Below are positions 20,816-63,504 of a stretch of DNA of 64,000 nucleotides, in pieces. Source of the DNA: Hydractinia symbiolongicarpus (Eukaryota; Cnidaria; Hydrozoa; Anthoathecata; Hydractiniidae); NCBI RefSeq assembly GCF_029227915.1, contig NC_079887.1:23805650-23869649 (forward strand), given 5' to 3'. A program made the translations under genes and the position numbers. The notes under the pieces are model-generated. The model made no database searches and was not told the origin of the DNA. It saw only the letters and a program-made list of their open reading frames with translations. Position 1 is the first letter of the stretch. The number at the start of each line of letters is the position of its first letter.

Positions 20816-21393
20816 CCTTCAGATATGTTCTTGAAAATACTGTTTCTGTCGTTGGTGTTAATTACCGCATTATCACACCATCGGTGCAATGGGAATACAC
20901 AAACTAGGGACGTCTGTTTTTACTACAAAAGGATAAAGCCTGCAAAAAACAACAACAACAACCTAATCATAATTCTACAGCTTTTTTTAACATCGTATTG
21001 AGTGGAGATAATCCAGGACCTGGTATACACAACAATCCTAAATGTAGTGCTTGTTAAAAAGGAGTTGGGACAAATCGAACGTTTTAAATGTAATTCGTGT
21101 TTGCGATTGCGATATTTTTTCATTGAAGAGATATTAACTTTGATTAAATAAATACAACTTTAAATCAGCCAAGAAATGATAATTATATTGATCTGTTACG
21201 AAGCCAACGAGGCTCAACCTCAATAGCGCATATCAATACACAATCTCTACTCTCATCTTTTGATGAGTTTTGTGTCATATGAGTTCTTACAATTTTGACA
21301 TCGTGACATTAAGTGATAATAAACATCAACTCCACTACGTTTCAATAAAGGGCTACGAGTCAGTATTCGTAAACAGGAGAGGACAGCGAGAAG

Positions 21394-21730
21394 GTGGTGC
21401 CGGTTTCTTTCAGCTTCAAAGCTAGGTTCGTTCTCACAAATAATTATTCACTGGAAGGATTATGCGTTGAGTTCCGCGGACGTATTAAAAATACACCCTT
21501 TCTCATTCTAACTGTATATCAACCAAGTTCCAAAGAAGATGAAAAGCTTGAATGGCTCCTTGAATTCGAAAAACTCCTTGCCGACATAATGACAAAGTGG
21601 ACCGGTGTCATATTTGTGACGGGTGATATGAACATTGATCTTCTTGGTAATGAGAAAGAATCCTCTAAACCATATAAATATATTTTGTCATCATATAACT
21701 TATTTCAACTCATAAAAAACCGAGGAGAAA
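21394..21730 (+). pseudogene. LINE endonuclease (EEP) fragment
   Basis: Contains SLEGLCVEF, then FLILTVYQPSSK and VTGDMNIDLLG, the classical endonuclease/exonuclease/phosphatase-fold motifs (vYRPP and GDFNiD). Upstream, in other frames, HINTQSLL and FDIVTLSDN correspond to the N-terminal strand motifs. The catalytic histidine at the end of the domain is missing because the sequence jumps to the reverse transcriptase. Confidence 0.7.
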
Positions 21731-21734
21731 GAAA

Positions 21735-22762
21735 TCTCTGTGCTACCTGTAATGTCAAAAATATACGAGAGGGTAATTCTAAATCAATTGTGCACCTACA
21801 TTGCACAACGACACTTGTACAAAACAACACAATCAGGATTTTGCAAAGGACACTCAACATCAACACTCCTCCTCAAACTTCGTGATGATATCAGGACAGC
21901 AATGTCAAAAACTGAAATTACTTTGGCCATCTTGATAGACTATTTCAAAGCATTCGATACTATAGATCATGGGATTCTGCTTAAAAAATTTCACATTCTG
22001 AACTTTTCTCCGGATTTACTTGAAATATTAAGTAATTATCTCAGCAATCGGTATTAATATGTGTAGATTGATGACCAGAAATCGTCTTGTCAACAAATGA
22101 ACTTTGGTGTGTCACAGGGAAGCATTTTAGGCCCTGTGTTGTTCAATCTCTATGTTATTGAACTCATATTCGATCATATCTCCGCAAAGTCCATACAATA
22201 CGCAGATGATACCACTATCTATCGACATTGCAAAATCAATCAAGACATTAAGCAGTGCATCCAAGAAATGGAAAATAATCTTGACGAATTTCTCTCCTGG
22301 TTTCAAATTAACAATCTTCTTTTTAACAGTGAGAAACTTCAATTTATAATCTTTGCTTCTCAACATCTATCACAACTGCTTGGAAATGATCGGAGTTACT
22401 TGCTTTGTTGTTTTGGAAACTCTATAGAGGAAACAGAGAAGTTGAAACTTCTTGGATTTACATTCAATAACAATCTAACATGGAATAAACAAGTTAGCAA
22501 TATCATCAAGCCACCTATGAAACCCTTCGCATATTATGAAAATTCGGTGGTTTTTTCTTTTTCACGTGAGAAAGTCCTTGGTAGAAGCTCTAATTTTATC
22601 GAAATTGAACTATGGCAATGTAGTAAACGCTCAGATACCACCTTGTCTGCAGCAAAGATTACAAAAGATGCAGAATATAACTGCTGGGTACGTGCTGTCC
22701 AGATATGCTACTCTTGTGGACATACCCAAACTGAAATGGCTCCCTGTAAACGAATTGGTTGA
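21735..22762 (+). pseudogene. LINE reverse transcriptase fragment
   Basis: Two frames. In 21740-22057: LPVMSKIYERVI, then QSGFCKGHST and IDYFKAFDTIDH (motif A). After a stop at 22056, in 22097-22762: GVSQGSILGPVLFNLYV (motif B) and QYADDTTIY (catalytic motif C, YADD), then KLLGFTFNNNLTW. The order and spacing are as in LINE polymerases. The break between motifs A and B by a stop means no intact enzyme. Confidence 0.75.
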
Positions 22763-27155: not shown

Positions 27156-27636
27156 AGAATTTGTTGTTGTTTTTGTTTGTGATGCCACTTTATAATAATA
27201 TTCATGTACAATCGCGCCAGTCTAAAAATACTCATACATTCCACATTTATCAGTTGCTCGAGAGAGAACTGCATAAAAATTCACATCCTGAATAATTTTA
27301 ATTATGGTAAATTTCAAAATTAATTCTGAAACTAATGATTCATATTGTGTTCCCTTTTTTAGAAAAATCCAAAACTTTAGTTATTTTAAAATTGTTGTTG
27401 GAATACAAAAGAATGTCTTTAGATTCTTCTGTTTTGCTCTTAGACCACTTAAAGACGAAGGAAAAAAAAACAATTAGGCAAACACGTGTATGAACATATT
27501 GACTTTTGCTACTTATATTTCAAAATAGACATCATAATTATCTACACATTGTCATGTGTTTATTGTTGAGAAGTTTTGAAGTTGCTCACTCAACTAAGAA
27601 AACTCACGCGAGTGGTAGCTTGCTGTTAAAAATGGG

Positions 27637-28383
27637 ATGTTTTTAAAAATAAGAAATATGGAGTTTATAGACGAGCAAGTGGCAACTATATCTTATGACT
27701 CATCCTATCTTAAGCCTTTGAAGATGGCTGACGAATGCTTGTTCAGTGTTGTGTCAACGAAAGTAGACAGTTTTGAAAGAAGAGGACATAGAACCTCAAG
27801 TCTGTTTAGTCTGAAGGATTATGAGAGTTTAAAAGAGGAACAACAGCTGGAAAATAAAGGCCAGTTTACACTGACTCATTATGATCAACCACGTCCAAAA
27901 GAAGCTGTGAATACACAGCCCGGTTATAATCACGATGAAAATAACAACATAAGGAGACCTCGATTATCATTTATTTCCTCCCATTGTGGGAGTAACTTGT
28001 CTTTGGCTTACAGAGGCAAAAATTTTGGTATCGGAAAAACATCACAACAGAATTCATATGAACTGGAGCCTAAAAAACGCATTAATGAAAAAAAGATACG
28101 GCAAGTGATTCAACAAGAGGTTGCCAATTTAAAGAGTATGTATACCAACCAATCGAAAATTTGCCTAGAGCTGACAAGTAATGTCAAAACCCAATTGAAA
28201 ATGTTACAGTATTCCAGACTAAGATTTATCGTTAACGTAACAGCTGGAGAAAATTTAAAACAGGACTTAAGAATGGCAAGTGGGTTCTTTTGGGACTCTA
28301 AACGAGACACCTTCATCAGTGAAGCCTTTGAATTTGAAAAATTGTTTGTTATTGTTAGTGTTTTTGCTGTGTATTTTGAATGA
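27637..28383 (+). CDS. Tctex1-domain dynein light chain, DYNLT5-like, intronless
   Basis: 248 residues in one exon; a second in-frame ATG at 27658 is an alternative start. Residues 1-140 are polar and of unknown structure. YELEPKKRI at about 141-149 is the short lead-in seen before the Tctex1 fold in DYNLT5/TCTEX1D1-type proteins. The Tctex1 domain covers about 150-248: two helices (KKIRQVIQQEV...L and LTSNVKTQLKML), then the strands RLRFIVNVTAG, GFFWDSKRDTFIS and LFVIVSVFAVYFE at the very end, where this family normally stops. Such proteins are accessory light chains of dynein, often linked to cilia or TGF-beta receptor binding. The FWDSKRDTF motif is diagnostic. The absence of introns might reflect retroposition, but the frame is intact. 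Confidence 0.85.
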   Translation: MFLKIRNMEFIDEQVATISYDSSYLKPLKMADECLFSVVSTKVDSFERRGHRTSSLFSLKDYESLKEEQQLENKGQFTLTHYDQPRPKEAVNTQPGYNHDENNNIRRPRLSFISSHCGSNLSLAYRGKNFGIGKTSQQNSYELEPKKRINEKKIRQVIQQEVANLKSMYTNQSKICLELTSNVKTQLKMLQYSRLRFIVNVTAGENLKQDLRMASGFFWDSKRDTFISEAFEFEKLFVIVSVFAVYFE

Positions 28384-35100: not shown

Positions 35101-38100
35101 CATCAAGGCTGAGATTTTGCCAAAAGTTAAGAATATATTAAGAATGCACTCAGACTAATTTCATTGATAGAACATAAAAACAAAACTACAAAGAAACAAT
35201 TATTTTTACCATATACTTATTTCTCAGTACTAATATACATATATGTTTTTACAATAACAAAATCAAAATGATCTGTTTCTTCCAATTTTAAAAATATTCT
35301 TCCTAATTCGTAAATCTGATCATATATTTCCTTGGTTTGTAGAAGAACACAAATAAGAACATTCGAGGCTGAAAAGGTGGGAAAAATAACACCCAACCAG
35401 CCTGAGTTGAAATGCGGTAGTTCATAAATATAAAAATAAAATTACCGTAAATGACTGATTAAGTTCCCAGAACTCAATTAAGCGCCAAGGTTCAACATAA
35501 AATATTGAGAAAAACATGTGTTTTAGTAAATTTCAGCATGATGAAGGAAACTTAATAACGCGGTTATATAGTATTTTCATCCCATAGTGAGAGTATTTAT
35601 CGAGCGTTTTTCGAAGTTGATCGAGTAGGACACAAGCAGTTCTTTTGTCAGCTGTAACAGCCATATAACGCGCAGGGTTACACCCAAGACAACTTTGCGA
35701 TTAGTGTTTTTTTGCATTAAAACAAAAAAAAAAAAACTTTCAGTAAAAAGGTAAAATGTATTAGTGATTTTTTTATTACCGTCCAGGACGGGCCCGTCAG
35801 TATAAGTGCCCACCTTAAAAGTATAAAAATTGATTATCACCCAGGGCGCTTAATCCGGTATATTAGAATTTAGAGCAGTATCACATTGTCACGTGATTTT
35901 CAAGCAAAATAGCGAAGATTTTAGAAATTCAATTACACGTCAATTAGCCTTCGAGTATTCAAGGTCCCTCCCATTCACTCTAAAATGAAGAAGAAAGTTT
36001 ATAATGTCACTGTATTTGCATTGCAATTATGTTAATGTTACTTTACGAGTGTAATTTTTTTCGTAGTGATGTGTAACAATTTTATTGTGAGAGAAATAAT
36101 TGTTTTGTAGAGCATTGTAGAGTATATTGTAAAGCGTTCTAAGGTTATCAAATCACGGTCTTTTATACAAAGCACTACTCCTCTTAAGAAGATAAGAAGA
36201 CTCTTCCTTTCCAAGACGATTCCTCTTCACTAAGACGACTCCTCTTAAGAAGCTAAAACGACTTCTCTTCCCTAAGACGACTTCTTTTCACAAAGACGAC
36301 TCCTCTTAAAAAGCTAAAACGACCTTCTTCCCTGAAACGACTTCTCTTCTCTAGAACGACGCCTCTTTAAAAGCTGAAACGACTTCTCTTCACGAAGACG
36401 ACTCTCTTAAGAAGCTAAGACGACTTTTCTTTATGACGACCCCTTTTAATAATCTAAGACGAATCCTCTTCTCTTAGACGACTCCTCTTAAGAAGCTAAG
36501 ACGACTCCTCTTAAGAAATTAAAACGACCCCTCTTTTCTTATGAATCCTCTTAAAAAGCTAAGACGACCTTTATTCTTTTAGACAACTCCTCTTAAAAAC
36601 TAAGACGACTCCTCTTCTCTAAGACCACTCCCAACCTCAAAACAACTTGTCTGTTATACTATCAGGTCTGTCTACGGGAAAATTAATAAGGTTAATTTCG
36701 TTTAAGCGCGACGAACTCGAAGTTAACATGTTTTTCTTTTCTATTTTTAGCAAGATACAGGTATGTTTGGCATAGACGATACCAAAGAAGAAATAGAAAA
36801 TCTGTGGAAAATGTATGTGGCGAAAACAAGATAGAATTTCCAATCATTTTTCTGTAGTTGTAGTAGTAAAACTCCATAAACACTTCTTCTTCTTTAAGTA
36901 ATATAGATATTATCATGTTATGAACAAGCGAGTTTATGACATGATAATATCTATATGATTCAAAGACAATGACTGAACAGATAAGTGGTAATATTTTTAA
37001 AACAAGACAGATTCTGTAATTTTAAGCACTCGTTTCTAAAATCTAACAAAAAACAATCTACACAAATGTCTAAGGGGCTTCAATTTGAATAATAACGTTT
37101 GTTATTTTAGATCTGGTCTTGATTATATTGATTTGTATATGATACATTATTTGGATACCAAAGGATTTTACTTAGAGACATGGAAAGTTATGATCGATGC
37201 AATGCATCAAGGAAAAATAAAGTAAGTCTCTTTATTTCAAATAAGAAAAAATGTGTGTTTTGCGACTTTGTGGATATCAGTTCTTGATTCTTTGTTGTTA
37301 GACTAATTTTCTAGCCATTCAGAGACGCACTTGTTTTGCACTTTTTCTTAATGCACAATCAAATTAACTGCAAAATTCCAATCCTTGGTTTTTGATCATG
37401 AACGCAGCAGCTATGTATTAAAATGGGAAGTGACGCGTAAATATAAAAAATAAGGTTTTTAAGGTATCCAAGCGCCCGCGCTACATCGCAGGCACAAGCC
37501 GAATAACATCATTACTTTTGTTTTCACCTATATCGTTTTTCGATGGCCCATAGTGCCCTTGAAATATTGAGATATCACAAAGTTTACTTAATTGATTGAT
37601 TACGATTTCTACAAATTGTCAAACAATTTTTGTAGAGGAATGAAACCTCTAGTTAATAAAAAATTAGGCTTAACAGGTCGAGTTTGTTAATTTAAGAAAT
37701 CTAACTGTTAACCACTATCCTTCAACGTGAATGCAAATGACATCATCAGATGTGGATAACACCATCATAGCTTGAAGTTTCCATTTCCCTAGCTTCTAAC
37801 TTTTATAAAAGTGAAAAAACATTTAAAACGGAACAAGAGTACGCGTTTTAAAAAGAAGCTAGTCATTCGCCGGGGAAAAATCCACCACCCGCCGCTCCTT
37901 ACAACTACTCAAATCTATTCCACTTGCATTATGTCAAAAAGGTCATTGCGATGCGTTCAATGTTTGTAGCTGTATTTTGTTACTACTATGTTTTCTTGTT
38001 TTCGTAGAGCAATTGGCTTGTGTAATGTCAACATTGGCCATTTGAATTATATTTATCTCCATACTGGAGTGCTACCGGCTGGTAAGTTTCTTCCCTTTCG

Positions 38101-45597: not shown

Positions 45598-48500
45598 ATG
45601 ATGTTGATAAGGGATGGATTCAGCATTATTTATGCTATTCTACTTACAGTCAGGTAAGTCAAATTGCTTCAGCGAAATCTTCATTTGCATTTTAAGCAAT
45701 CTGAGTTAAAGATTTCAAGGTGGTCAACCTTGTTACTGGATAGGAAATTGCAAAGGTATAAGGATATGTTAAAAGGTTGAAAAAAGGTATTTAAAATACT
45801 GAATTTGTTTTTATTTTCTATGCGTGTTATTTAGTTTTGATAATGTCTGTTGGCGGTCGTAACGTCGTCAAACGCTATTTATTGATTGTGTCGTATGTTT
45901 TGTGGAAGAATTCAGTTTATTGTGGTGTTGGACAAAATTAGCTAACAAAAGTATAAACGGACAATGGTATATTTATAATTGGACAATAAATTTCGATCTA
46001 TAATTTCATCAGCTTCAGGTTTGAAACACAGAATAAAACAAGAATAGAAATCTATAAGAAAATATCTGCATATACCCCTACAGTTAAAAATATCTAAATA
46101 GACAGAAAGAAAAAAATTATAACTTTCTTACTGAGGCTCGACTTTCATTTTATTGTCAAGAAATAGAAGCTCATTGTCAGTTTTAGAGGTTTTTACTATG
46201 GTATCTTTATTATTGAGCCCCAACATCATTAAAAATCACATCTTCAGCCGATAGCTAGGAAAACAAAAAGCTTTTCCTGTCTGTCCTCTACGAGAGTTCT
46301 CAGCTCACCTGTTTTTCTCACCTCTTGTCATCAACAAGACACAACCTAGGGAGCATAGCAGTATGGTAAAAGTTATGTCTTAACTTCAAAAAGTTTAATA
46401 AAACACCAAATAAAAACAAATTAAGAACATTTTAGGCTGAAATTTAGTGAAAATATAAGAACATCCAGCTATGGCAGACAATTGATGCCAGTGTAAATGT
46501 ACTCGCATAAAAATAAACGTTTTAAAAATTTCTTAGAAAAGAAAATGTTTTTCTAAAATGATTTAGAAAAACATTTTTTCTTCTAAGAAATTTAGTTTTA
46601 TTCGTATGATACACATTTTATTTGGAAACTGGTTTTACAAGGCAGGGTTTACGATTCTTAAAAAATCACCCTTTCAGCATGAAATGATACTTATGTTTCT
46701 TAATTTTTTAAGAATTTTAAGCTTCGTGTTTCTTAAACTTGTGTTTTTTAATGGTACATGTACGGTAATCTTTCCTCCTTTTTTACCATTTAAAATACTT
46801 TCTTTCTTTCTTTTTTTTCTTTATGATAATTTGATTCATTATCGTGTTTATATCTGTAAAGTTAAATTTTTTCTCTTTTTTTGAATAAGTTAGGTTTTCT
46901 TTGTTTGTTTCCTACCAACAGTCCTGCATTCTTTCTTAAATGTTTCCTAAGTTTCTGACATGCCATGTTTCTTAAATTCGAGTTTCTTAAAAAAATTGAT
47001 GTAGAGTGAGATTCATATAAAAATCTTTTGTCCTGTCCTAAGCTTAAAAGTTTCTTTACAAGTAATAGAATGTGAAGTAAGAGCAATATAAGAAAGACTA
47101 GTCGTTAGCCTGTGGAAAATCCACGTGTTCGCCCGTCTTTTTTATACCGCATTGCGTGCTTCTCGCTATTGCGCAGCTAAGCTACCATTTTGCGTGACAG
47201 ACGGACGGACGGACGGGCGGACATTTAACTAAATTTGAAAGATAACTCATGTTGCAAAATTTCCATCAGTAAACCGTTCCTTAAGTGATTATTAGAATAC
47301 TACAAGCGGGATTGTCTGCAGGCCGAAAATAGAAAATATTGCCCATAAATTTAGATGATTGTCCTTTTGGTAAATAAGCCATTTAAAGCTCTGAATTTAA
47401 GGATTTTAAAATGCATGATTTACATAACACTAAAAACGGACTTAGCCTTGATTTCTCCACAGGCTAAGAAAACATATAAGTTGAGTCTAAAAACTACTAA
47501 ACAATTTTTCATTTTCTTTTTATTAGAAGATAACTTCAACATATTTTTTCTTCTTTAAATTCTAACAATTTTTGTCCATATATGTAAATCTGACCATGTA
47601 TTTCGTATTTTTGGAAAATAACACATATAAGAACATTTGAGACTGATGTCAAGAAATATGAACCCAAAATTTCGAAAAGCATGTTATCTGCTACATTTGC
47701 AAACTTTTTTGCGATTCTTTTCATTTTTCAACGTAAATTTTGTTAGGAAGTAATTTCACGGAAACTGAGGTCATTACTAAGCTGTTTTTTCAAACAATAA
47801 CTATTTAAATTTAGCTGCGGTTTTGTATTCAGACATTGTCGATCTTTGGTGAATCATTAGAATCAATTATTCTAAAAACTGTTGATCAACAAACACTTTT
47901 CTTATTTCGTAGTGACTTATATGAATACAAATAAGTTTGACGAAAAATTAAAATTATAAGTTAAGCTTATTATTAATATTGAAATATTTACCCAGGATAG
48001 CCTCTTCAGTTTCCATTGGTACTGCTATCAACGAGGGTCTTGTGAAGGGGGTCCTAGTGCATTTAAAGCTCCCATTTGAGCTACGAAAGTGGTGCAAGCA
48101 AAGCAATCGCTCAACTAGACAACTGCTTAAGATATCAATCCTATTCTCATGCTTAGCTCTAAGTAGAACAGAAGTAAGAGCTGAAATTTTTTTCCTGGAT
48201 TAGTTATAATAATAATGATAATAATACACATCATAATCTCATACATGTAGTCATCGAAGTAAGAATTCTAGTCTTTACGGTCTGGTTTGCATTCCATACG
48301 CTGACTGGTATATATCACAAAACTTATATGGAGAACAAGTGAAGAAATATTACAACGCAACAACACATTTTTCCTCAGAATCTTTCACAGATAGCCATGC
48401 TTAGTTAAAAACGCTATTGATGCGTTGTGCTTCACCATTTTCATTGTTATTTTAAGCTTTTCGGCTTACTAACGTTTCAAAATAATATGTAACATATGAT

Positions 48501-51500
48501 AAAATGGGTATAGAAAAACATTAAGCATATTCCGTAATACTTCGAATAAACGCCCCCTTCTATTAAACGCCTCCTCTTATAGACGCCCCCCTTTTCAGTC
48601 ATTTTTTAAAAAAACGCCCTTCCTCATAAGGGGGCGTTTATTCGAGGGGATAGAAAAAGTATATGAAAAAATCAATAACTGTTATTGTTTTGCTCTTTAA
48701 ATTAAAAGCCAATTTTAATGGTGCTATTATAACATAGAAATTTCATAAATACAACTAAACACAATCCCTCATATTTGATACATCGGTAAAATATGGATCT
48801 TTTTTTTCTAAATCTTAGGTTTAAAGTTGTTTTTGCTTTTGAACTGGATATATTGTAAAGTTTATACTATACGTATTCTTAAAAACTGCAAAAAAGACGA
48901 AGTGTAAAAAATTTAATAAACGCCCTCTTCTTTTAAACGCCTCCCTCGATTAGACGCCCCCCCCAAAAAAAAAAAGAAAAAATGTCGGGCCTTTATTCAA
49001 AGCATTACGGTACTTTTTAAACTGGCATAAGTTTTTCCTCCCAAAGTTCAATGTTAGATGTTCTAAAGGTGTTTTTATGACACATGTTCTTATATGAGAT
49101 TTCAAAACTTATGTATTTATGTTTTAAGCTAGTCACTGAGGCATGATAATTTTCAAATGTTTAGAACTTTGAAAGATCCTTTTCCATTGTTGATTGAAAA
49201 ATAAACTGAATTCTTGTCTATGTATAAATCGTTTCTGTGACGTTCAGTTTCTGCGTTAAATCATTCTCGAGAAAAAGACTTTTATGCAGTAGTGAAATTT
49301 TTTTTACCTAGACAAGGATATTCAAACCAAGTATAAAAGACAGATCAATAATTTTTTTGACCTGAAAAAAAAAATGGGATAATAAAAGCATTTAAATGGA
49401 CTAAAGTTTAAGAAATTCTTTTCATTGTTTCTTATAAGTAAATGGCGCGAAAGTATGTTTTTGATGAGCGTTCGAATATATTTCATTTAAACTGTTATGT
49501 AATGAAACCAGGAAAAGAACACAACTTGCAAACTTATCATTGTTTTTTTTATGTACTTTTAGTCTATCATCGATTGCCTGTCAGAATGCTCCAGTTCCTG
49601 ATTTTGCAATCCACAATATTACAGTGACAAATACTGTTTATCGATTCCAATTTTTAATGGGAAATTACACATTTCGAGATAACATCGACTCGTTTCAGAG
49701 CTTAAGACTTGAATGGTTGCTGATGAACGGTAACGCAGTCCCTGCCAGCAACTGGGTGCAACTTGATGATACAACGAAAAGCTTAGTAGGGTTTATCAGC
49801 AAAAGCACTTACCAAAATCAGCCAGCCATTGGGTACGAATATGTACTGAAAGCTACAGATAAAGATGGGAATAGTGGCAGTAAGATATATAACTTCAAAC
49901 TTGACTCGCCACCAAGAGAACCGAACTATAAGCGCCTTTTAAAATTAACATCAACTAATTCTATTGTCTATGTTAGAAATTATGTTCAAATCCTGTTTGA
50001 CATACAAAATATTTTATTTCAATACGCTCAGAAAACAAACCAAGGCATAAGCGCACTAAGAAGTTTCATCACGGAGGAACTAAAGGTCACCAAGTCAAAC
50101 GGCGTGACCACAATTGACATGACATGGAGTATCACCCCATTCTTGTATAACCAATGCCAGTTGCAGACAATAATGAATTTAAGATCAAAAACAATTGGAA
50201 GTTACCTACAAGAATATACCAGCGCTTTTCAGCCGTTGTACCAGTTCAACAGTGAAGGAGAAATTTTTAGTAGCGTATGCAGCTATCTATCAGCAGATCC
50301 AGCTCGCGTCGGTGCTTCATTATCTCCATTTTCTGTCGTGTATGGTGTCCAGTTTTCCATAACAATACCTTCTACAGCATTTCTTCCCCCATTAAGTGCA
50401 AGTACAATGTCATTAACAGTCCAATTGCGTTCCTCAACCGGTGAAGCATTGACAAAAACCAGTTGGATTAATCTCAATGGCAATGATTTATCACAAGGTG
50501 TAAGATTGGAGGGGTATGCATCATACGCTGTTGCCTCGCAACAAACAAGTTTTTCATTTCGTTTGGTTGCTTTGACTCCTCTCCTTGTCGAAACCTACAG
50601 AAGTATAAGCATAAGTATTGGGCAATTCCAATCGATGCAAGAGAACTACATCGTCACGTTTTTGTCAAGTTCGGTAATCACTGCTCAGTATTCGACCTTC
50701 ATACGCAGCTTTATATCCACAATCTCAGCGTATTTATCTGTGTCTTCTTCCTCAATTATTGTTTACAGTTTTGAAAACACGCAGGCAAACACTGTTTTGA
50801 AATGGACGATAACAACTTTCACAACAGGCTGCGATATAAACCTAAGCACATCTTACACGTCGAAAATGATCGCATCGAATGGGCAACCAAACAATGAACT
50901 AAGCGTTTTGATCAACAACATCGGTTTCCCGCTGGCGCAAATTAACATCAAAGTTGGAGCTACATGTCAGAAGCCAGTAATTAATAACGCAATAGGACAG
51001 ATATCCTTTGCATGGGGAACATTCTTTCAGTATGTGATTGCAGCAAATGCCTACGTGGACGCAAGAGATGGCACTAACTTGAAATTCAGCATGTTTCAAA
51101 CTGGTAGCGCGTTTTCGTCTTCCAACTGGATAACTGTCAACAGCACAACAAGAACAATCTATGGTGTTCCTATCATAAAAAGCATTGTAAAGGGACGGAC
51201 GTATACTTTCACGTTAAGAATTACAAACAGTATTGGAAATTACATCGATGACAGCTTCACTGTTACAAGTAATATCGACCCTCCCGCGTTCAGCTACAGA
51301 TACAAAGTAAGGATCGAGTACAGCAGCTTTTATCAATCCATGGCTTCGGTGTTGTTTGGATTTTTAAACAGAATGTATGTCTATTTTCGTAACTCGAACA
51401 GAAATCAGTTACTCGTACAGGAGGTTATCTCATTTGTAAACGAAAGAAGAATGGAGGTGATATATTATAACACCAGCTTCAGAGTAACACCTTGCGACAC

Positions 51501-54500
51501 AAAAAGCATTGCAGTAGCTAATGCTTTACTGTTTGACGGTGTTAAGCCAAGTCCTTTACTAATAAATGCAATGAAACCGAACTTTAATGTTTTGGATATA
51601 AACAGCGTCTCAGGTTGCCCAAAGAATGTTCCACCTGCTATTAACGTCGCAAAACTTCCTGAAGAAGCTGGTCCTCATTCAATATCATGGGGAAATTACT
51701 TCCAAGCTACTTTATCCGATGACCTGTTCTTTGACGAAGAAGATGGCGGCACAAAAAATTTACTCATCACTTTCAAATCCATCTCGTCCAACTTTAATCT
51801 AGCATTGTCCTCATGGATTTATTATGATCAGGCAAATTTTACTGTATACGCAGTCCCAATGGACGCTACGTTTAACTTGCTCAGTGGAAATACCATACTG
51901 AAATATGTGCTCAGAGCGGAAGATAGCGGAGGACTTGGAGTGAGCACAGAATATATAATGCAACCAACAGGAGCTGTATCGAACTTTTACAGAATAACAT
52001 ACGTCATGGAAGTATACAATATAGCTGCTTCATCTTATGCTTATCAATTAATCACAATGTTCACAGACCTTTGGTCTATATTAGGTGCAAAGTACCAGCG
52101 GCAAATGTGTATAAGGAGTTATCAAGTCACAAGTGTGTCGGGTAATAATGGTATTGCAACTTTGGTGTGGACACCGTGTAATTTGCCAGTCCGCAGTTGC
52201 AACTTTGATATCATTAATGAAATAAAAAGCAAATTATTCGTGACTGGTACCACAAGTTTAAAACAAGAAGTAACAAAAAGATTCACTTATTTTACTATTA
52301 AAAGCGTAACAGACATTGGATCTGGAGCTTGTGGTTTAAACCCTCCAACAATATCATATCAAATACCTACAATTCAGATATCCTTTTGTGGTCTTATGAA
52401 ATACGCAATTCCACAGAATGCCTTCATTGATCTTGAAGATGGAAATACAGGAAATTTAAGGCTGACATTGACTGATGCCAGTGGAAATGCGATGCCTTCC
52501 TTTTCGTGGATATCTTTTGATGCATCGAAGCAGGAGGTAACTACACTTCTGCATCAGTCTATGTTTAACAATAACTTTCAAAGAGTGCAAAGGTTACGAT
52601 TGACTGCCACGGACAGATCTGGATTGAATACGACGCAAATAGTCACGTTTAATATAAACGGCAATGCCATACAGACGGATTATAAAGTTGAGTTTCAAGC
52701 GCGTCTATCATTCGTTGACACCAACGTGAATTCATTCATCAGGTTTGCAGAAAAAATGGGCAATTATTTCGGTGACAATGGCAAGGGATTTGAAGCAATA
52801 CGTCAAAGAAAAACAGCAGATGGTACAACTATTTTCGAATTTGGAAATTGCACGATACCATATTCGCCATGCAATGTTGTCGAAATGAACAGGTATAAAA
52901 ATAAATTAAAAAATTCTGATGGCTCGTGGAGACAGTCCTTTGAAAACAACTTATTGCCTGAATTTACCAAAGTCTTTATAACTGACAGCCTATCTGGTCC
53001 ATGCGCAGTTGATGAAGCACCAAAACTTGTAAACACTTGGGGTCCATTATATGTTGAGATATATAAGACTTACATCATCCAAGTTCCGGAAAACACTTTT
53101 TTCGACAAGGAAGAAGGAAACACGCGGAAACTTCAGTTGGAGCTACGAACAATAAGTGGTACTGCTTTGTCATCAAACTTTTGGGTGTCATTTAACTCTG
53201 TTAGTCAAACAATCACTATTGTAGCAACAAAAGCTGTTGCTGAATCGTTAGCGTCATCGAGACTAACATTAAATTTGTATGCCTATGATAGCAATCGTAA
53301 AAGCGCTTCCCAGCAGCTACACATCGTTATCAACTATTCAACTATTCCGACAAGTCACTACATAAGCATGCAGTTTACGACAGTTGGCTCGAGTTTTGTT
53401 ACGATTTATAATCAATTACGAACAAGGATAACTTCATACTTTCAAGACAACGTGGCAATAGGAACAGTTTTGTTTCATTCAGCGACAAATAACTTTTTAA
53501 CAACATTATCTGTCGTGTGGAGCAATAGAACAATATCATCCACCAATTGTGAAAACGAAAAAATCAATTACATGCTTTCTAAATTGTTTTCGTCAAACAA
53601 TATCGTTCATCCAGCATTTGTATTAGCATTGTCAACATTTACAATCTCTAAATTGTCGTTTTTCTACGATGGTATATGTGATTCTGAACGGAAACCACCA
53701 GTAGTTATGACCCAAATTTCGCCACTGACAACTTCGTTTTGTAATTACATTGAATATCTTGTACCTGCAAATACATTTTCAGATGTGTTAGATGGCAATA
53801 CAAGAAGTCTCTCCCTGGTTATGTTAAATTTGGACAACACAAACATAAATCTCAATTCTTTTGTTTATTTTAATGAGCAGACGCAGACCATACGTGTTAA
53901 TCCTTACGATACAGCCTTTACTAGTGTATTATTTCCAAAGCGGTATTCCTACTTGCTCAAGGCAACAAACAAACGTGGTCTATATGTCACTACAAACGTC
54001 CACATTGATATCACCACTGGTGCGCCGAATTACAGCTACTCGTTTCAAATCACTGGTACTTGGTTAAAACAACAGAATCTGACGCCTATCACCGACATTA
54101 TAGCAGAATTTCAATTAAAATCCAGTTCATATTTTGGATATCAAACGGGTAGTAATATTCACATAATTGATGTCATGAGACCATCGCCATTTTCAACAAC
54201 GTTTTCCATAAAAGCAACCAGTTGTTTAATTGGATATAACCCTTGCGATAACAATAACATAAAAACACTTCAACAAAAATTATTTTCATCGACTGGCACG
54301 TTTCATCTCGCCTATTCGCAAACTCTTTTACCAAACATACAACTGTTGTCGATTGCTGAACAAAGGATTGGTCCATGTAAAAAGCCGAACGAACCACCAA
54401 CACAGTTTCTTCCCATACCAACTGTAACTTTGAACTCTTGCTCTGCTTTTAGTTACAAACTAGCTCCGCAAACCTTCAAAGATGCCGAGGATGGTTTTAC

Positions 54501-57500
54501 GTTAAGTTACGTCATAATTTACGTTAACGGCTTGGCTATCAACTTGGACACTACCTGGATATACAATACCATTAATAAAGATATCTTAGCAACAGTAAAC
54601 AACGATGTAGTAATGGGTAGTGGCACTAACGGCTACATGATAACAATAAGAGCATTTGACAGTCAACAAGCGTTCGTTGATGCAACATGGAAAATAAACA
54701 TTGCAGGCAAAAAACATCAAACATTTTATAAAATCATTCTTGATGTCACATCAAAAACGTCTCTCCGACAAGCTTTCATAGAACGTTACTATTTGACTAA
54801 ATACATCAACAACTTTCTAAATGCTAACTATACGAATGCTATCAACATTGAGTTATTGCAAAATAACCGAATCCGTTTTGCATGGAGTTCCTGCAGCTTG
54901 CCTGACTATTGTGATAGAAACGCTGCAAATATTTTCTTCATGAATATGAAGGTTGGTAATAACTTTGTCACCGAGTTTGTTAATGCGCTATCTCCACGCT
55001 ATGTTCTAAATGATGTTTCAATGGAAACTCATGCAACTTGCAGAGGTCCTATTTCACCACCTATTCCATCAAGAACAACTTGGACACTAACTATTAATCA
55101 ATGTGGAGGAATGAATATGTTAGTTCCATCCAATATGTTTACTGACCCAGAAGATGGTAACACAAGGAATTTAGATACAAAACTTACGAAATCAACCAAC
55201 CAACCACTCCCTCACTGGATATACTATGACACCACGTCGCAAACAGTCAGGGCGTTTCCTACTAGAGCAGAAGCAGTGGCGTACCAAGCATCGCCATACA
55301 ACCTTAAGCTTACAGCAACTGATAAGACAGGCTTGTCAGCTTTTATTGATGTACCTATTATAATACAAGTTCCTGCCGAACCCAAGTATCTATTCCAATT
55401 TCAATATACCGTCTTAAACGTTGGCAATAGGATTCTGGAGTTACTGGCTTTTTCACAGAAGTTGTCCAACCATTTAACTGCACAAAGAAATCAGGTTGGG
55501 TTAATATCATATTCTTTCTCAACGACATCAACAACAAGAACTTTTAAGTATGGCAACTGTTCAATTTCATACAATCCCTGTGATCTGGCATCGTTAACAC
55601 AACTTCGAAACCGCTTTATCAACTCAAACAACTTCCCCAACACGGCTTTTCAAGCAGCAATGCTTCCGCAATACAATATGAGGTTTGTTCTAACAGAGAA
55701 ATTATTTCCATGCTCAGGCGTGGTACCAACTCCTCCAAGAGTTGTAAAACCAATTCCCACTTTACTTGTACCCATGTGTGGTTACTACCAATATTTAATT
55801 CCAGAAGATACATTCTACGATCCCCAAGATGGAAATACAAGAAAGCTGACGTTAAACCTGTTATCATCTTCTGGTCAGGCAATTCTTCGTAATTCCTGGA
55901 TACAATTTAACAGCCAAACTCAGACCATATATGCAATGATAACAGCATCAGACGCACTTGCAAATATTAATGGATTTCGTTACAGATTGAAAGCTGTGGA
56001 TAGCTCACAGCTTCCTGCTGAGACAACAGTTAACATACAAGCTACTGGCCAGTACGAAATAGCTCAAGAATGTCAAATTAAACTCGATTTATTGACGACA
56101 GCCACATCCAACAAAGTGGAGAGGATGCGATATGTAGCAGAAAAGTTGAAAGTTTTCTTTCAATTGACATCTGTGGGAGAGATTGCAATTTCAAATTATA
56201 TAGAACTTAGCAGTACTAAATTCCAGTTGTATTGGACCTACTGTTCATCAACCTATCAAACGTCTGCAACAAATGTTGCAGTAGATTACTCTTCCTTGAT
56301 CACAAAAATCTTAATGAAGTTATTCTTAAATGATCGAAAAACAATCGTGTCATCTTTCTACACGGCATTTGGGAGTGGTTATACGGTTGAAAGCGTAACA
56401 ACCCAGTTTAGTAAAAGATGTCAGGACCTACCTCCCATTGCCGATCCGAATACCAATCAAATCAAAATTACTCTTTCCAGTTGCGGCTATAATCAACGCA
56501 ATCTCGCGCCAACACTTTTTTATGATTTCGAAGATGGTGGCACATCGTCTTTGCAATTATCTATGTATTTAAGTGATGGTGCAACCCCAGTTCCGCTTAA
56601 CACCTGGGTTAACATTGACACCCAGTCACAATCAATCATTGCTGTGTGCAACGACAATGTGAGAGCGTTAGTACCTGGTTCTTACACGTTTTTTTTGAAG
56701 GCTAAGGATAAAAGTGCACAAACAGCTTCATTAAAAGTAATTCTTGAGAAATTTCAACAAAATCCAAATCAATTGTCACCATTTGAAATCACGTTTGAGA
56801 TGAAATACAATGGTCCTGCGACACGATCATTAACCTACGAAAGTATGTATGCCTCTGAGAGAATTAAATCATATTATCAAATAACCTCCAACCCAGCAGT
56901 TTTAATTAAAATGTATGATATAACCCATGGCTATACGAATTTTAGAAGATTAACTTGGACAACTTGTGAATACCAAACTTGCTCATCAAGCGTCATGTCA
57001 AAAACGAAAGCTTTATTGACAGATTCTGGTGTATTGCCTTCTCAATTTGTTAATTCTTTTCTCAGCGATTTAACAATTTATCGAGTGTATTACACGTCCA
57101 CCTGCAACCCGCCAAACTCACCACCGCTCAACTCCAATCCAATCCCACCTCTCCAACCGCAATATTGTTCTCTCTTTTCCTATCAAGTTACTAGAGCAAT
57201 ATTTTATGACAATGCGAATGGTGATGTTAAAAACTTAAAGGTGCAGTTATACGCATCTAATGGTTCAAAACTACCGAAAGCTTCTTGGATACAAATCAAT
57301 ACAGCTAAACTTGAAATTTACGCAGTAAATATTGCATCTAAATCCTCTCAAGTTTCATCCCCCTCTTTTGTGTTAAGAGCTACAAACAGTGGAGGACTAT
57401 CTTTAACGACGTCAGTAAAAGTTGATTTTGACAAAACACCATATACAGCTGACTGTCCAATCACAATGAGTTTTCAATATAAATATGTCACATCTGACAC

Positions 57501-60500
57501 AGCTGATATCGATGTAATATGGATTTTTGCAAAAACTCTCCAGAAGTACTATGGCGATGCAAATGTGATGATCAAGGTTTTAGATTTTTACCAATTAATC
57601 AACGGAGATTATCAAATCAAATGGAGTAATTGTTCGTTCGTGTATAACACCCAGGAGGAAGCAAATAAAGGACTTGCTGAAAAAGATCGGGGAGCGATTA
57701 CCCTTATATTCTCCAAGCTGCTTGACACAAACACACAACAAATAAATTCTAATTTCCGCAGCGCTATGCAAGAGATGTTTACTATCAAAACACTAACTGT
57801 AAGTTATCAGTGCATTGAAACAGATCCTTATCCGACCAATACGGATGATTACAAAATATATTTAAAGCCATGTGAACTAAATAAACATATATTGCCAAAT
57901 AATCTCTTTATTGATAATAAAGATGGAGATATAAGAAGCATGCAAATTGCACTTACTTACACCAATGGACAAATCGTATCCCAGTTGGAGTGGCTTCAAA
58001 TCAATACAGACACGAGTGGAAGAAAGTATATTTACGGAATGGTTTCAGAAAGCATAATGTTATCTGCTCCGCAGAATGGATTTCGATATTTGATCAGGTG
58101 CACTGACAGCTCAGGAAGAAGCGCAACACTACCGCTAATTGCCTTTGTTATCCAGCAAGGAGTATTGTCTAATAATATCTTTACAATTGGATTTAGAAGT
58201 TATATAACCGATACTAATCCTGCAGCTTATGTGCTTGCTGAAATCAGCAGTAAGATAGCAACGTATATTGATCCATCAGATACAAAAGTACAAGTGTTTG
58301 TTAAAAACTTCAACAAAGATTCATTTATTCAATTCGTGCGGTGCAATTTACCATGTAATGAAAACACTCTCAATGTGATATTCAATAAATTTCAAGTTAC
58401 TAAATACCAAACTATTCCTAATTTTCAACTAATACAAGCGCTGAGACCGCAATTTGACGTCAATTATGCATATGTAAGCGCACCTACTTGTGTAACTAAT
58501 AACAACGAAACAATAACACCTGAAAATTGTCCAAGCATCCAGCTGTTGACATGTGGTTGGTTCACAAAGCCATTATCATCTCAATGCTTCAGGGATTCCA
58601 CTGGCAGAAACACAAAGTCGTTCCTGACTACCATGCTGCAGCAGGACTTGGCAACAATTCCGAGATCGTCTTGGATACAATATGATATCATAAGTCAATC
58701 CTTTTATGGAATCCCAATTTGGAATCAAGTACTGGCAACACAAAATTACAAAATGAAAGCTACTCATCCTGCTTCTGGAAATTCAGTATTATCATCGATC
58801 AATTTTCAGTTTGATGGTTACTCTGCCATTAGTAAAAGTAATAATAAAGTCTGCCAAGTTACGTTGAAATTCGACGACACAATGGATAAAGGCATGATTG
58901 ATGTTACCATCATCAGGAAACTGCTTGAGAAAATTTCCGCGTTTTCAACATCAAACATTGGTATAAATTCCTATCTTGTGATGAACTTTATGAGATCTAA
59001 CAACGTTATGTCACTAACGTTTTCAAATTGTACATGGTTTCAATTAGTTAATAATCCAGGGAATGGGAATTCGGTATATCTTCAAGAAGTGATGAAAGTT
59101 TTAGGACAATACTTTGTTATAACCGGCACCACAATAGTTGGAATCAAACCATCTTTCAGATCTTACCTTGCTCCTGATTTTGTCTTCAGAAGTTTTTCAT
59201 CATCGGTCGGATGTACAAGTACACCTTCTCCGCCGCCTTTTGCCAATAAAGACCTGTTAGTCACACTCGAGCGAAGGTGTGGGAAATTCACTTATATTGT
59301 CCCAACTGACACATTTACAGATCCACGTTACGGCAATACAAGAGCTTTAAAATTAAATTTGCTAACCGCAGATAATCAAGAATTGCCAAAATCAACTTGG
59401 ATTAAATTGAATGACAGCCAAATAGTTTATGGTCTTATTGAGGAATCTGTGGTTCTGAATCAACCTGTTGGTGGCTACAAATTTTTACTTCGAGCGACCA
59501 ATCAAGATGGACAGTCTGCAACAGCAAGATTTACAGTGGTTTTACCAAGCCAACCATGGACAATTGAATTTTCATCATTAACGATATCATTCCGGATTGT
59601 TCCACCTCCTACTTATGACGTTGACTACAAACTGTCCTTAATTAACCAGCTAGAATCATACACTCTATTTCAGTCCATGCAAGAAGGTTTTTACATACAG
59701 TCATTTGTTAATGTTGGAAACGTCATTAACGCTAAGGTTGCTTATTGCTATCAATGTAGTCCTCTCAATTATGTAAACACAATGTATATCCAGCAAAAAA
59801 CTCAAAGTCTACAAGCTTGGTTATTAAACAAGTTCTCAGTGTATGAGCTAACCACAGAAATGCAATCAGACCAATTTGTAAACAATGCTTGTGTAAATGA
59901 AGACGATCCTCCCGTAACTCCATACAAACAAAACTTTGCACTGTGCTCGGAAAATATAATATTTCTTAGAGATATGTATAATCCGCTCGTTGACTCCTTA
60001 ACGGTCGAACTTTTAACAACTGATGGAACAATTGTTCCACTGAATTCATGGGTAAATCTATTGTCGCAGCCGTACAGAATTGTTGCATTACCCACTATGG
60101 ATATGATCAATATTCCTTACTACGAATTCTTCATTCGTATCAAAAGAAATAACATTGTTGTGGGAGATCTTCAACGATTACAACTTACCGTGGTGAACAG
60201 AATTCCATCCATTGGTCAAAAGTACACGTTGTCTTTAACCGGTAACAGCAACCAAGTCCAATCAGATGTCTCTTATATATCCTTCGCTTGGGGTTTAACA
60301 CAAAGGTATATCGGAGGCGCTAAAACACTACAACATATTAGTTTTACAAGAGTCAGCAATAATCCTGTCAGCTTTGTGCTATCTTGGTACAACTGCTCAC
60401 TCCCATGTGGCGATGACAATGTTCAAAATGTAAATTCAAAACTTTTTCAAAACAACGCTGTCAATTTACAATATTCTAACCTCTTCAGTCCAACGTACAC

Positions 60501-63500
60501 TGTATCATCCCTGACTACAATGTGTACGGACGACCCGCCGATTGTTAACGCTACGTATAACATCACTATACCAGCTTGTGGGGTTTACAAGCATAAGCTA
60601 CCAAATACGTTTGCATATGACTCTACCGATGGTTATTTGAACAATCTGAACGTTGAACTAAGAAATATGGACGGCAGTGCGATATCACGATCCTCTTGGA
60701 TACAGTTTAATTCTTTACAAAAAGAAATTCAAGCAATACCGAATAATGGTATCATAATGACGACACCAGCATCTGGATGGAGGTACATGTTATACGTGAG
60801 TGACCGTAACCAAAAGACATCGTTCAGTACTCTCTTTGTCAAACTTCAAAGAAGAGTGGATAATTTCGTGAAGTTGGACGTCTCCTTCAGAAGTTCCTAT
60901 CCTGCTACTACTAGTTATGTCAAAATACAAGAAAGCGTCATGCAGTTTGTTTCTACTTATATCGGTGACAATTCCATATCGGAGTATCAAAGTTATTCTT
61001 TCAAGAGAAGTGGAATAGCAGAAAATTTTGTAATGCAAATTTCTAACTGTACTGTCAACAGATACATGTGCGCATCACAAGATGCCCAATTAAAATTGCT
61101 TGAAGGTAAAATTAAACAAACAGATGGCTCTGTAAGCCCAAATTTTGCTTCATACGTTCAAACAACTTCCGGTGGACGTGTTGTTATCACTTCAGCATCA
61201 ATTAGTTACACCTACTCAGTTGATTTACCACCACAAATAAGGGAACCTATACCAACTGCTTATGTTACGTATTGTTCTGGAAGGAAATACAAAGTTCCAG
61301 ATAACACGTTTTCTGATGAGAAAGCATTAACGTATTCTATGAAGTCTCAAGGTAACAGTCAAGTACCTCCACTAAGTAACTGGGTTTACATGTATCAAAA
61401 CTCTATATACATGTTTCCACAAATGAGCACAAGGCCCGGCACTTATAAATACTTGATAACAGCGACAGACTCGTGTGGTCAGACCGCAAATACAGAGTTA
61501 ACAGTTGACCTTTCTGGTCAGCAAGAAACCTCAAGGTATTCCTTAACAATGCGCCTTCAAAAACAAAATTCGCTCCCTTATTCTTATGAAATATGGAATA
61601 TTCAAGAGACGCTGAAGAAATGTTACGATATGGTCTCGAACACTATTCGATCAGAATCATTTTTAATGTTTAACGGTTACATGGAATACAAATGGAGTGA
61701 TTGCGCCATACGTACTGATCCTTGTGACGTCAATAAAATAGACAAAATTAATTCCAACACTTTCTCCTACTCATTTGTTCTTAGTGATGAAATAAAAACT
61801 TGTTTTCAACCAAATTTGGTGCTTCAAAACGTCGTGGAAAATCGTTTATCAACATGCCAACCTACTCTTATCTCTCCAACTGCAAACTATGTAGTCCAAC
61901 TGAGAACAAGATTTTGCCAAAAGATGAACTTCCAGGTACCAATAGATGTTTTTTCAAGCACAAAGGACGGAAATACAAGAAATTTAAAACTTGAGTTGCT
62001 TATGACTAGCCTAGATCCGTTACCAGCTTCAGAATGGGTGCAATTTGATCAGGAAAATCAACTGATCTATGGATACGCAAGAACAGGAGAATCTATTGAA
62101 AGCGTAAAAACCAGTTACACTTACAAACTAAAGGCAACAGATAGTTCCGGCGCGTATTCCTTTACAAATGTTGTTATTACAATCATAGGGGAAATTCCAG
62201 CTTTAAATTACCTGTTGTCTTTATCTGCAACTAGCGTTGCCAGTATCCAGAAGAGCATTGACCAAGAAATTAGTCTAATGGCAATATTGAGAAATTACTT
62301 CAATAAGGAAAATATCAATGATGTTTCTTTCACAAGAGATTCAACATCATCCAGAGATTTTACATTCAAATGGACGTTTTGTCAATTTCCTAAAGCCACA
62401 TGTCCTTGCAACAGAACCCGAGAATATAAACAATTAATGCTTGAAACGAATACCATTAGAAGTATTATGCAGCCTAATTATGTTTTCAAGTCATGGACAG
62501 ACGAAAAGAAAGGCAATTGCCTTGAAAATGGAAATCCCGTTGCTATGACTCCAATACCAAACAATCTTATACCTGTAGGTCGATGCTATGGTAACGTTGT
62601 TCCACAAAACGCGTTTTACGATGCTGAAGATGGATGGACAAGGAACCTCACTTTGTATCTACGTAACATGCAAAATCAAGAATTCGCAAGAAACTTCTGG
62701 ATTCAGATGGATTCGCAAAAGCAGAAGGTTTGCGGGATATTAACAAATCAAGCATTTAAAGACCTTCGACTTGGAACGAAGAAAAATTATCCATATGAGT
62801 ATAATATTCTTGCTAGAGATAGCTGTCTGAATGAAGTTTCTAAAAAGGTGGTATCAACAATAGACATTGAAACGTATCCAGCTGATCTTCAATACGTATT
62901 TTTTATGGTACTGTACAAAAGGCAAGGAGATCTAATGTCTAACTGTTCTGACATCGACCGACTCATCTACAAAATAGCCGATTACAGTGGTGGATATAAT
63001 AAAACCGATATTATGGTTGAGTACATCACTGTTTATAATAGCACTGCTACAAACTTTACAGAAATAGCATGGAGTTACCGCAATGTGAGCGGCGGAAATT
63101 GCTCGAACAGCACTGTGAAGAATCTACAAGAAAGATTTGTTCGCGACAACAACCAAACAAATCCTAATTTTATTTCCTATATGCAACCGGAGTACGAGGT
63201 AGTTAGCGTTCGGGATGAGAAACGTGGCGCTTGTGTAGTAGGGCCAGCGGCTTTTGCTATACTTGGAAGCGATAATGATTTTGATTGGTGGTTTCTTTGG
63301 TTGCTGTTGGCATTAGCGTTGTTGTTTTTATTGGCCTGGTTGATATGGTTGTGTTGTCGCCGATATTGTCCAACATTCTGCCCAACTTGCTGTGGTCCTT
63401 GTGATTGCTGTTCCATTTGCACAAAATGTTGCATTCCATCTGGGAAATACGCATCTTTCGCTGAAGATGATCCAAACGATGTCTCTGGAGGTAGCTTTTG

Positions 63501-63504
63501 CTAA
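45598..63504 (+). CDS. Giant dystroglycan-related transmembrane protein, 20 CADG-SEA modules
   Basis: Exon 1 is 45598-45653 (ATG ATG, basic-hydrophobic signal peptide, donor GTAAGT). Exon 2 is 49563-63504 (acceptor CTTTTAG, stop TAA). The phase-2 join restores a frame through SLSSIACQNA, giving about 4,665 residues; 13,942 bases come from one exon. After the signal peptide there are 20 modules of about 225-240 residues. Each starts with a CADG domain (typical VPxxTFxDxEDGNTRxL, SWIQFxxxxQxIYA, YxLKATDxSGL), then a SEA-like domain ending alpha-dystroglycan style (FxWxNCSxxYNPC, KLF, ALxPxFxVxSV, GxC). Then TM at about 4594-4615 and a 50-residue tail. In dystroglycan a single CADG-SEA pair sits next to the membrane and binds, with its partner subunit, matrix to cytoskeleton. 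Here the dystrophin-binding PPxY end is absent. Likely a long extracellular adhesion or surface-coat rod; function is inference. If exon 1 is wrong, a start within exon 2 (49540 frame) is the fallback. Confidence 0.85.
46526..46593. repeat. 68-nt near-perfect hairpin, 32-bp stem
   Basis: The arms 46526-46557 and 46562-46593 are reverse complements with two mismatches and enclose a 4-base loop (ATGA). The core is ATGTTTTTCTAAA. The length is similar to a small-RNA precursor, but the loop is very short and the stem is almost all A/T, so a MITE core is at least as likely. Confidence 0.6.
47098..47215. repeat. GACTAGTCG-family repeat copy
   Basis: GACTAGTCGTTAGCCTGTGG is followed by AAAATCCACG, then TTCGCCCGTC. 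This is the most complete copy in the window of the family that also appears at about 23155, 23862 and 26028 and in the tandem array at 32580-33110. It is followed by GACGGACGGACGGGCGGAC, a short tetranucleotide run. Confidence 0.55.
47540..47700. repeat. Interspersed repeat shared with 35270-35430
   Basis: AAATCTGACCATGTATTTC...ATATAAGAACATTTGAGACTGA...ATGAACCC parallels, in the same orientation, AAATCTGATCATATATTTC...AATAAGAACATTCGAGGCTGA...ATAACACCC at 35270-35430. Related 'TAAGAACAT...GGCTGA' strings occur at about 35096 and 46424. A dispersed non-coding family. Confidence 0.5.
48532..49010. mobile_element. MITE with CCGTAATACTTCGAATAAACGCC ends
   Basis: The left end, CCGTAATACTTCGAATAAACG, matches the right end read in reverse, CCGTAATGCTTTGAATAAAGG. 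Internally there is a second inverse copy (GGGGGCGTTTATTCGAGG, 48633-48650), so 48532-48650 itself folds back. AAACGCC-type units recur. About 480 bp, non-coding. Confidence 0.6.
49588..63234 (+). repeat. Array of 20 CADG-SEA modules in the giant exon
   Basis: Using the last codon of each SEA domain, the modules end at 50280, 50967, 51618, 52332, 53004, 53679, 54378, 55041, 55713, 56421, 57105, 57813, 58491, 59214, 59892, 60525, about 61224, 61857, 62520 and 63234. Each therefore spans about 630-725 bases. Module sequences are clearly homologous but strongly diverged (little nucleotide identity), so the array is old, not a recent expansion. Module 17 lacks the terminal cysteine. Modules 1-4 are the most diverged: their CADG parts lack the 'CGxxxYxVP' cysteine and modules 1 and 2 lack the DxEDG loop. 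Confidence 0.85.
63286..63504 (+). other. Transmembrane helix and 13-cysteine cytoplasmic tail of the giant protein
   Basis: WWFLWLLLALALLFLLAWLIWL (split here as residues 1-22 of the segment) is a typical single-pass anchor. It is followed by 50 residues with 13 cysteines, 12 of them in the first 27 (CCRRYCPTFC, PTCCGPCDCC, SICTKCC), then an acidic end finishing in SFC. In the cytosol such a cluster would most likely be S-acylated or bind metal. No PPxY, PDZ-ligand or basic juxtamembrane motif like that of beta-dystroglycan is seen. Confidence 0.75.

Follow-up and report, generated by a model that had tools for sequence, protein, structure and literature searches.

Among adhesion receptors of muscle, dystroglycan serves as the model; cleavage within its SEA domain normally yields a receptor of two chains. 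In mammalian DAG1 (8yt8, 8uf4, 9c3c) one module, consisting of a cadherin-like (CADG or IG2) and a SEA-type (MAT_NU) domain, is combined with cleavage between Gly and Ser, a mucin region and a dystrophin-binding C terminus. The membrane-proximal MAD domains of protocadherin-15 (PCDH15) and cadherin-23 (CDH23) likewise pair a SEA-like with a cadherin-like domain; in these long tether proteins, a single SEA-like domain follows the EC repeats. Tandem IG2_MAT_NU modules are on record: the available part of Adams & Brancaccio (2015, PMC4582122) reports pairs of them for arthropods, Trichoplax and Saccoglossus, and a row of six for Nematostella; in the latter, the final module comes closest to the human one and the Gly-Ser (GS) site is unconserved. 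The same part of that source carries the speculation that module repeats would yield a stiffer receptor with its N-terminus farther from the cell. Here, a gene encoding 20 such modules followed by a transmembrane helix is described from a window of 64,000 nt of Hydractinia symbiolongicarpus (GCF_029227915.1, NC_079887.1:23,805,650-23,869,649, forward strand).

Since tandem modules of this kind have already been published, the window gene is an extreme, derived member of a known architecture class, and its array fits the rigidity and distance speculation. A sequence-only reading of the window had assumed that dystroglycan was established with a single pair only, which the twofold and sixfold arrays in the available part of PMC4582122 contradict. 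Its claim of a new architecture does not hold for the array class, which that source already contains; the window array is far longer than the published six modules. No 20-fold array of dystroglycan-type modules was found in the open-access literature among the matches listed, in line with its statement that it knew of none; the same genome, however, holds genes with 23 and at least 18 modules, and orthologs may well be annotated without having been described.

As far as the available parts of the sources go (PMC4582122, PMC5216574), the Nematostella dystroglycan resembles the window protein in being a tandem array of the same module type that is not built from exon units, whose last module is distinct from the others and in which Gly-Ser is unconserved. 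It differs in having six modules rather than 20, and in its short mucin-like region, furin motif and cytoplasmic insertion, whereas a mucin-like block and a cytoplasmic PPxY are both missing from the window protein.

Gene model and module array

The gene was modelled on the + strand with the following features:

45598..45653, + strand: putative exon 1, with ATG, a hydrophobic stretch and a CAG/GTAAGT donor; start codon and signal peptide MMLIRDGFSIIYAILLTV-S
45654..49562, + strand: putative intron of 3.9 kb, GTAAGT ... TTTTAG, phase-compatible
49563..63504, + strand: exon 2, one unbroken 13.9-kb coding exon including the stop, from the open frame
63286..63354, + strand: transmembrane helix, Kyte–Doolittle hydropathy (KD) 2.84 at residue 4599, the chain maximum
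63355..63501, + strand: 49-residue Cys-rich cytoplasmic tail without PPxY, from a sequence scan

The stop-to-stop frame runs from 49468 to 63504 (4,678 codons). Exon 2 contributes 4,646 stop-free codons, for which the chance at such composition is about 1e-137; in the other five frames across it the longest open run is 107 codons. Putative exon 1 opens with ATG ATG and reaches KD 1.94 at residue 7. Its predicted join to the acceptor TTTTAG, which ends at 49562, keeps the frame and would give the signal-peptide-like N terminus MMLIRDGFSIIYAILLTVS-LSSIACQ and a spliced product of 4,665 aa.

A profile iterated from one module identified exactly 20 modules between residues 29 and 4576, each with an independent E-value (i-E) of 1.8e-29 or better. 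Because this profile was trained on the window protein itself, three further profiles were built without it, from modules of a giant paralog (C15a) and of the two true dystroglycans of the same genome. All 20 modules were matched by the profile from 23 C15a modules (worst E 1.5e-16) and by that from the C15a modules plus the two true dystroglycan modules; the profile from the two dystroglycan modules only matched 18 of 20 (15 at E<=1e-5, several with partial module coverage). The shuffled window chain gave 0, 0 and 0 matches to these three profiles, and the reversed chain 0, 1 (E 0.0072) and 0. With Pfam, the whole chain was matched by DAG1 (PF05454, E 4.6e-28) and He_PIG (2.3e-16). Module by module, the DAG1 cut-off was passed by module 5 only and the He_PIG cut-off by module 3 only, and 13 of the 20 modules matched neither family at E<=0.01, so that Pfam alone would miss the count of 20. 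The modules are located as follows:

49591..50280, + strand: module 1 (CADG+SEA), i-E 2.3e-41
50305..50967, + strand: module 2, i-E 1.3e-33
50974..51618, + strand: module 3, i-E 1.2e-45; He_PIG above cut-off
51652..52332, + strand: module 4 (one staple Cys of two), i-E 1.3e-46
52345..53004, + strand: module 5 (modelled; Gly-Thr in the maturation column), i-E 1.3e-66; DAG1 5.4e-11
53020..53679, + strand: module 6, i-E 5.5e-49
53698..54378, + strand: module 7, i-E 3.1e-55
54397..55041, + strand: module 8, i-E 1.1e-42
55060..55713, + strand: module 9 (modelled together with 10), i-E 2.1e-55
55735..56421, + strand: module 10 (alternative SEA Cys; C176 lost), i-E 1.4e-60
56443..57105, + strand: module 11, i-E 3e-42
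57124..57813, + strand: module 12 (alternative SEA Cys), i-E 1e-58
57835..58491, + strand: module 13, i-E 8e-40
58513..59214, + strand: module 14 (alternative SEA Cys), i-E 8.8e-35
59236..59871, + strand: module 15, i-E 3e-40
59971..60528, + strand: module 16 (CADG start outside the profile match), i-E 1.8e-29, profile 36-213 of 219
60535..61203, + strand: module 17, i-E 2.4e-46
61231..61857, + strand: module 18, i-E 1.8e-47
61876..62520, + strand: module 19, i-E 3.2e-52
62536..63234, + strand: module 20, membrane-proximal, no staple, i-E 2.2e-52

Adjacent modules are joined by linkers of 2-11 residues, except for 33 residues before module 16. Module 20 carries nine N-glycosylation sequons, and each of the other 19 modules between none and three.

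The model of module 5 (AF2, pLDDT 90.4) was matched by Foldseek to the fold of dystroglycan (8yt8), and a profile match spans the entire module (E 1.1e-32). PCDH15 MAD12 (E 6.2e-5) and CDH23 MAD28 (E 6.9e-5) were ranked after dystroglycan; these are weak structural matches, with TM-scores of about 0.3. The coordinates (45598..63504) and giant size (about 4,660 residues), the 20 CADG+SEA pairs, their fold and dystroglycan kinship, and the single transmembrane helix after the array had all been proposed by the sequence-only reading and are supported.

Pairwise identity between modules of the window gene is 13-28% (mean 19%), and no array was reported within exon 2 by Tandem Repeats Finder; the array is thus neither a recent duplication nor one produced in assembly. 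These values also bear on the suspicion that the locus is no real gene but a pseudogene or a mis-assembly. Such a view may draw on the gene being known here from DNA sequence alone and on the unsettled exon structure of a second giant paralog (C15b), but it is hardly credible given the 4,646 open codons, modules too dissimilar for assembly copies and an exon without a reported tandem DNA repeat.

Dystroglycan hallmarks and paired cysteines

An IG2 (CADG) plus SEA-type MAT_NU module stands ahead of the transmembrane helix, as in dystroglycan. In the aligned maturation column, Gly-Ser occurs in none of the 20 window modules (module 13 is gapped there, and module 5 has Gly-Thr), in one of 18 C15b modules, in one of 23 C15a modules and in both true dystroglycans. 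Within the wider site window, GS was present in three of the 18 C15b modules (n01, n02, n10), and one of these three has it in the aligned column itself. No mucin-like stretch was found in the window protein, where Ser+Thr+Pro reaches at most 42% over 60 aa versus 58% and 65% in the true dystroglycans. The cytoplasmic tail contains no PPxY, the dystrophin-binding motif; the only PPxY of the chain is PPTY at the extracellular residue 3367. Since the GS site is also absent from Nematostella, nematode, urochordate and several arthropod dystroglycans, according to the available part of PMC4582122, its loss alone does not exclude a dystroglycan. With GS, mucin region and dystrophin-binding motif all looked for and all missing, however, the predicted protein should not be filed as one. 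A CPTCCG stretch after the transmembrane helix is common to the window protein and C15b, and this Cys-rich segment suggests lipid anchoring.

That the protein does dystroglycan's job as a diverged matrix receptor, with laminin outside and dystrophin inside, is very improbable on these results. The modules are homologous to those of dystroglycan, and the tails of the other giants have PPxY (PPPPYSPP in C15a, PPVY in C15b); against this stand the three missing hallmarks of the window gene and two further genes of the genome that combine mucin-like stretches and GS with a PPPY close to the end.

Cysteines were surveyed in 63 modules of five genes, numbered according to module 5, with Cys15 at the start of the CADG domain and Cys169 in the SEA domain. 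Both were present in 43 modules, neither in 17 and a single one in one (module 4), two being gapped (Fisher 3e-14, an optimistic value as the kinship of modules is ignored). For the window gene the corresponding counts are 13, 5, 1 and 1. Both residues are absent from the two true dystroglycans of the genome, and in mammalian dystroglycan the two positions are occupied by Gly and Asn, in contrast to most window modules. Because losses strike both cysteines of one module, the simplest reading of the pair is a predicted interdomain disulfide, or staple, inside the module. Modules 10, 12 and 14, like the C15b modules at the corresponding positions, have lost the conserved Cys176 but carry a Cys in the first SEA strand; for five of these six modules the alignment column shows it, for module 10 a motif two columns off.

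The last module lacks the Cys pair in all three giants and would thus be a softer module at the membrane if the protein were a force sensor in which tension opens SEA and exposes a site so that the rod is shed, in the manner of a tip-link or Notch-type mechanoreceptor. SEA-like/cadherin-like pairs of dystroglycan and PCDH15 replaced the Notch switch in chimeras (available part of PMC6586460), and the PCDH15 and CDH23 matches ranked after dystroglycan point the same way. Such a role is a genuine rival to the rod proposed below, though an unlikely one: staples in most modules would oppose unfolding, the protein has no known partner or channel, and the TM-scores of those matches are just about 0.3.

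Relatives in the same genome

A search of the genome with PF05454 gave 11 matched places. The three giants and two dystroglycans recognised among its genes are a lower bound, as they rest on this search. Besides the window gene, they are:

C15:4095213-4113869, - strand: C15a, 23 modules in one open frame of 6,219 aa, with transmembrane helix and tail
C15:4623000-4639911, - strand: C15b, 18 modules detected; divided among several open frames, with the breaks located within modules
C8:26556030-26560370: dystroglycan-like gene L015, one module, S/T/P-rich stretch, GS, PPPY near the end
C8:19165497-19167584: dystroglycan-like gene L017, one module, S/T/P-rich stretch, GS, PPPY near the end

A transmembrane helix followed by a Cys-rich stretch is a feature of all three giants. 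Unlike the window gene, C15a and C15b continue for roughly 530 and 515 residues beyond the helix, and each of these long tails has its PPxY (PPPY and PPVY). The count of 18 for C15b was obtained by merging 23 matched pieces by rule; in-phase consensus splice pairs were present at two of six joins, and the frame breaks presumably come from introns. About 7 kb upstream of the C15a frame, two long trinucleotide arrays of several hundred bases each (C15:4120728-4122817) appear as single-residue frames. GFP, sought in the genome as a cnidarian marker, gave no match, an outcome without bearing on the affiliation.

C15b and the window gene are colinear at an offset of two modules (C15b module k against window module k+2), and 15 of 18 C15b modules have their best match at the expected place (14 of 18 with trimmed columns). 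At this offset the centred identity gain is 8.6 points, compared with at most 0.7 at 13 other offsets, and the score was reached by none of 100,000 permutations. The 15 positional pairs are 23-41% identical, versus the mean of 19% within the window gene. No module was found upstream of the first one detected in C15b, that is, no counterparts of window modules 1-2. C15a showed no colinearity with the window gene (best offset gain 0.93 points versus 8.63 for C15b). From the module tree, whose deep branches are weakly supported, only paired tips were used. The ordered match implies that a long array predates the split of the window gene and C15b and that the positions have kept their identity since.

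The same match counts against a self/non-self or adhesion receptor in which varied modules would give binding specificity instead of forming a mechanical rod. Modules that are 13-28% identical and yet keep their fold would suit that function, as would three such genes in one genome, but it is quite unlikely because the correspondence with C15b in order, including the displaced Cys of modules 10, 12 and 14, suggests long constraint, not hypervariability.

Proposed rod and other features of the window

On the basis of the direct observations (number and fold of the modules, absence of GS and of a PPxY in the tail, cysteine covariation, ordered paralog correspondence), the gene is proposed, at a probability of roughly 0.58, to encode a type I membrane protein that belongs to the dystroglycan superfamily and forms an uncut, partly stapled 40-domain rod with a spacer or tether role. 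The extracellular part would be one continuous rod of 20 x (cadherin-like + SEA) domains, probably without cleavage into alpha and beta chains, as no SEA domain shows the Gly-Ser maturation site. CADG and SEA would probably be clamped by the extra disulfide in 13 of the 20 modules. With cadherin-like and SEA domains of about 4 nm each, a length of the order of 100-200 nm may be expected, and the N-terminal modules would be held far from the cell surface. Anchorage would be provided by the transmembrane helix and a possibly palmitoylated Cys-rich tail, not by dystrophin.

Several points weigh against this proposal. Gene and protein are known here from sequence and predicted models alone. The pair model of modules 9 and 10 reaches a pTM of just 0.50 for the module-to-module geometry, so the array may be kinked or flexible. 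The Fisher value for the cysteines ignores module kinship, five of the 20 window modules have no Cys15/Cys169 pair, and the Gly-Thr of module 5 might still be cleaved. PPxY is kept in the tails of both other giants (C15a PPPY, C15b PPVY), which limits any uncoupling from WW-type partners to the window gene, and its absence there does not exclude other cytoskeletal links.

A bolder version of the uncut rod, tentative and rather doubtful, would see a distinct ancient class of giant tethers derived from the dystroglycan module: without autoproteolysis, with a stapled shaft and an unstapled, force-sensitive last module, one strut replacing two-chain dystroglycan, and with the dystrophin-binding motif missing from the window gene. 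A family in which the unit is multiplied about 20 times, apparently uncut and often disulfide-clamped, beside ordinary dystroglycans of the same genome, would be a natural experiment on the purpose of cleavage and dystrophin binding, and would add a class of very long cell-surface rods.

The remainder of the window contains the following:

11526-11930, - strand: short frame with a ShK-like domain (1.5e-4)
17059-18195: single-exon rhodopsin-type GPCR frame (7tm_1, 1.3e-23)
21373-22762: reverse transcriptase element fragments with broken frames (RVT_1 3.7e-11 at 22067-22762)
27619-28383: open reading frame with a Tctex-1 family domain (2e-18)
36177-36631: AAGACGACTCCTCTT-like units in an imperfect tandem array
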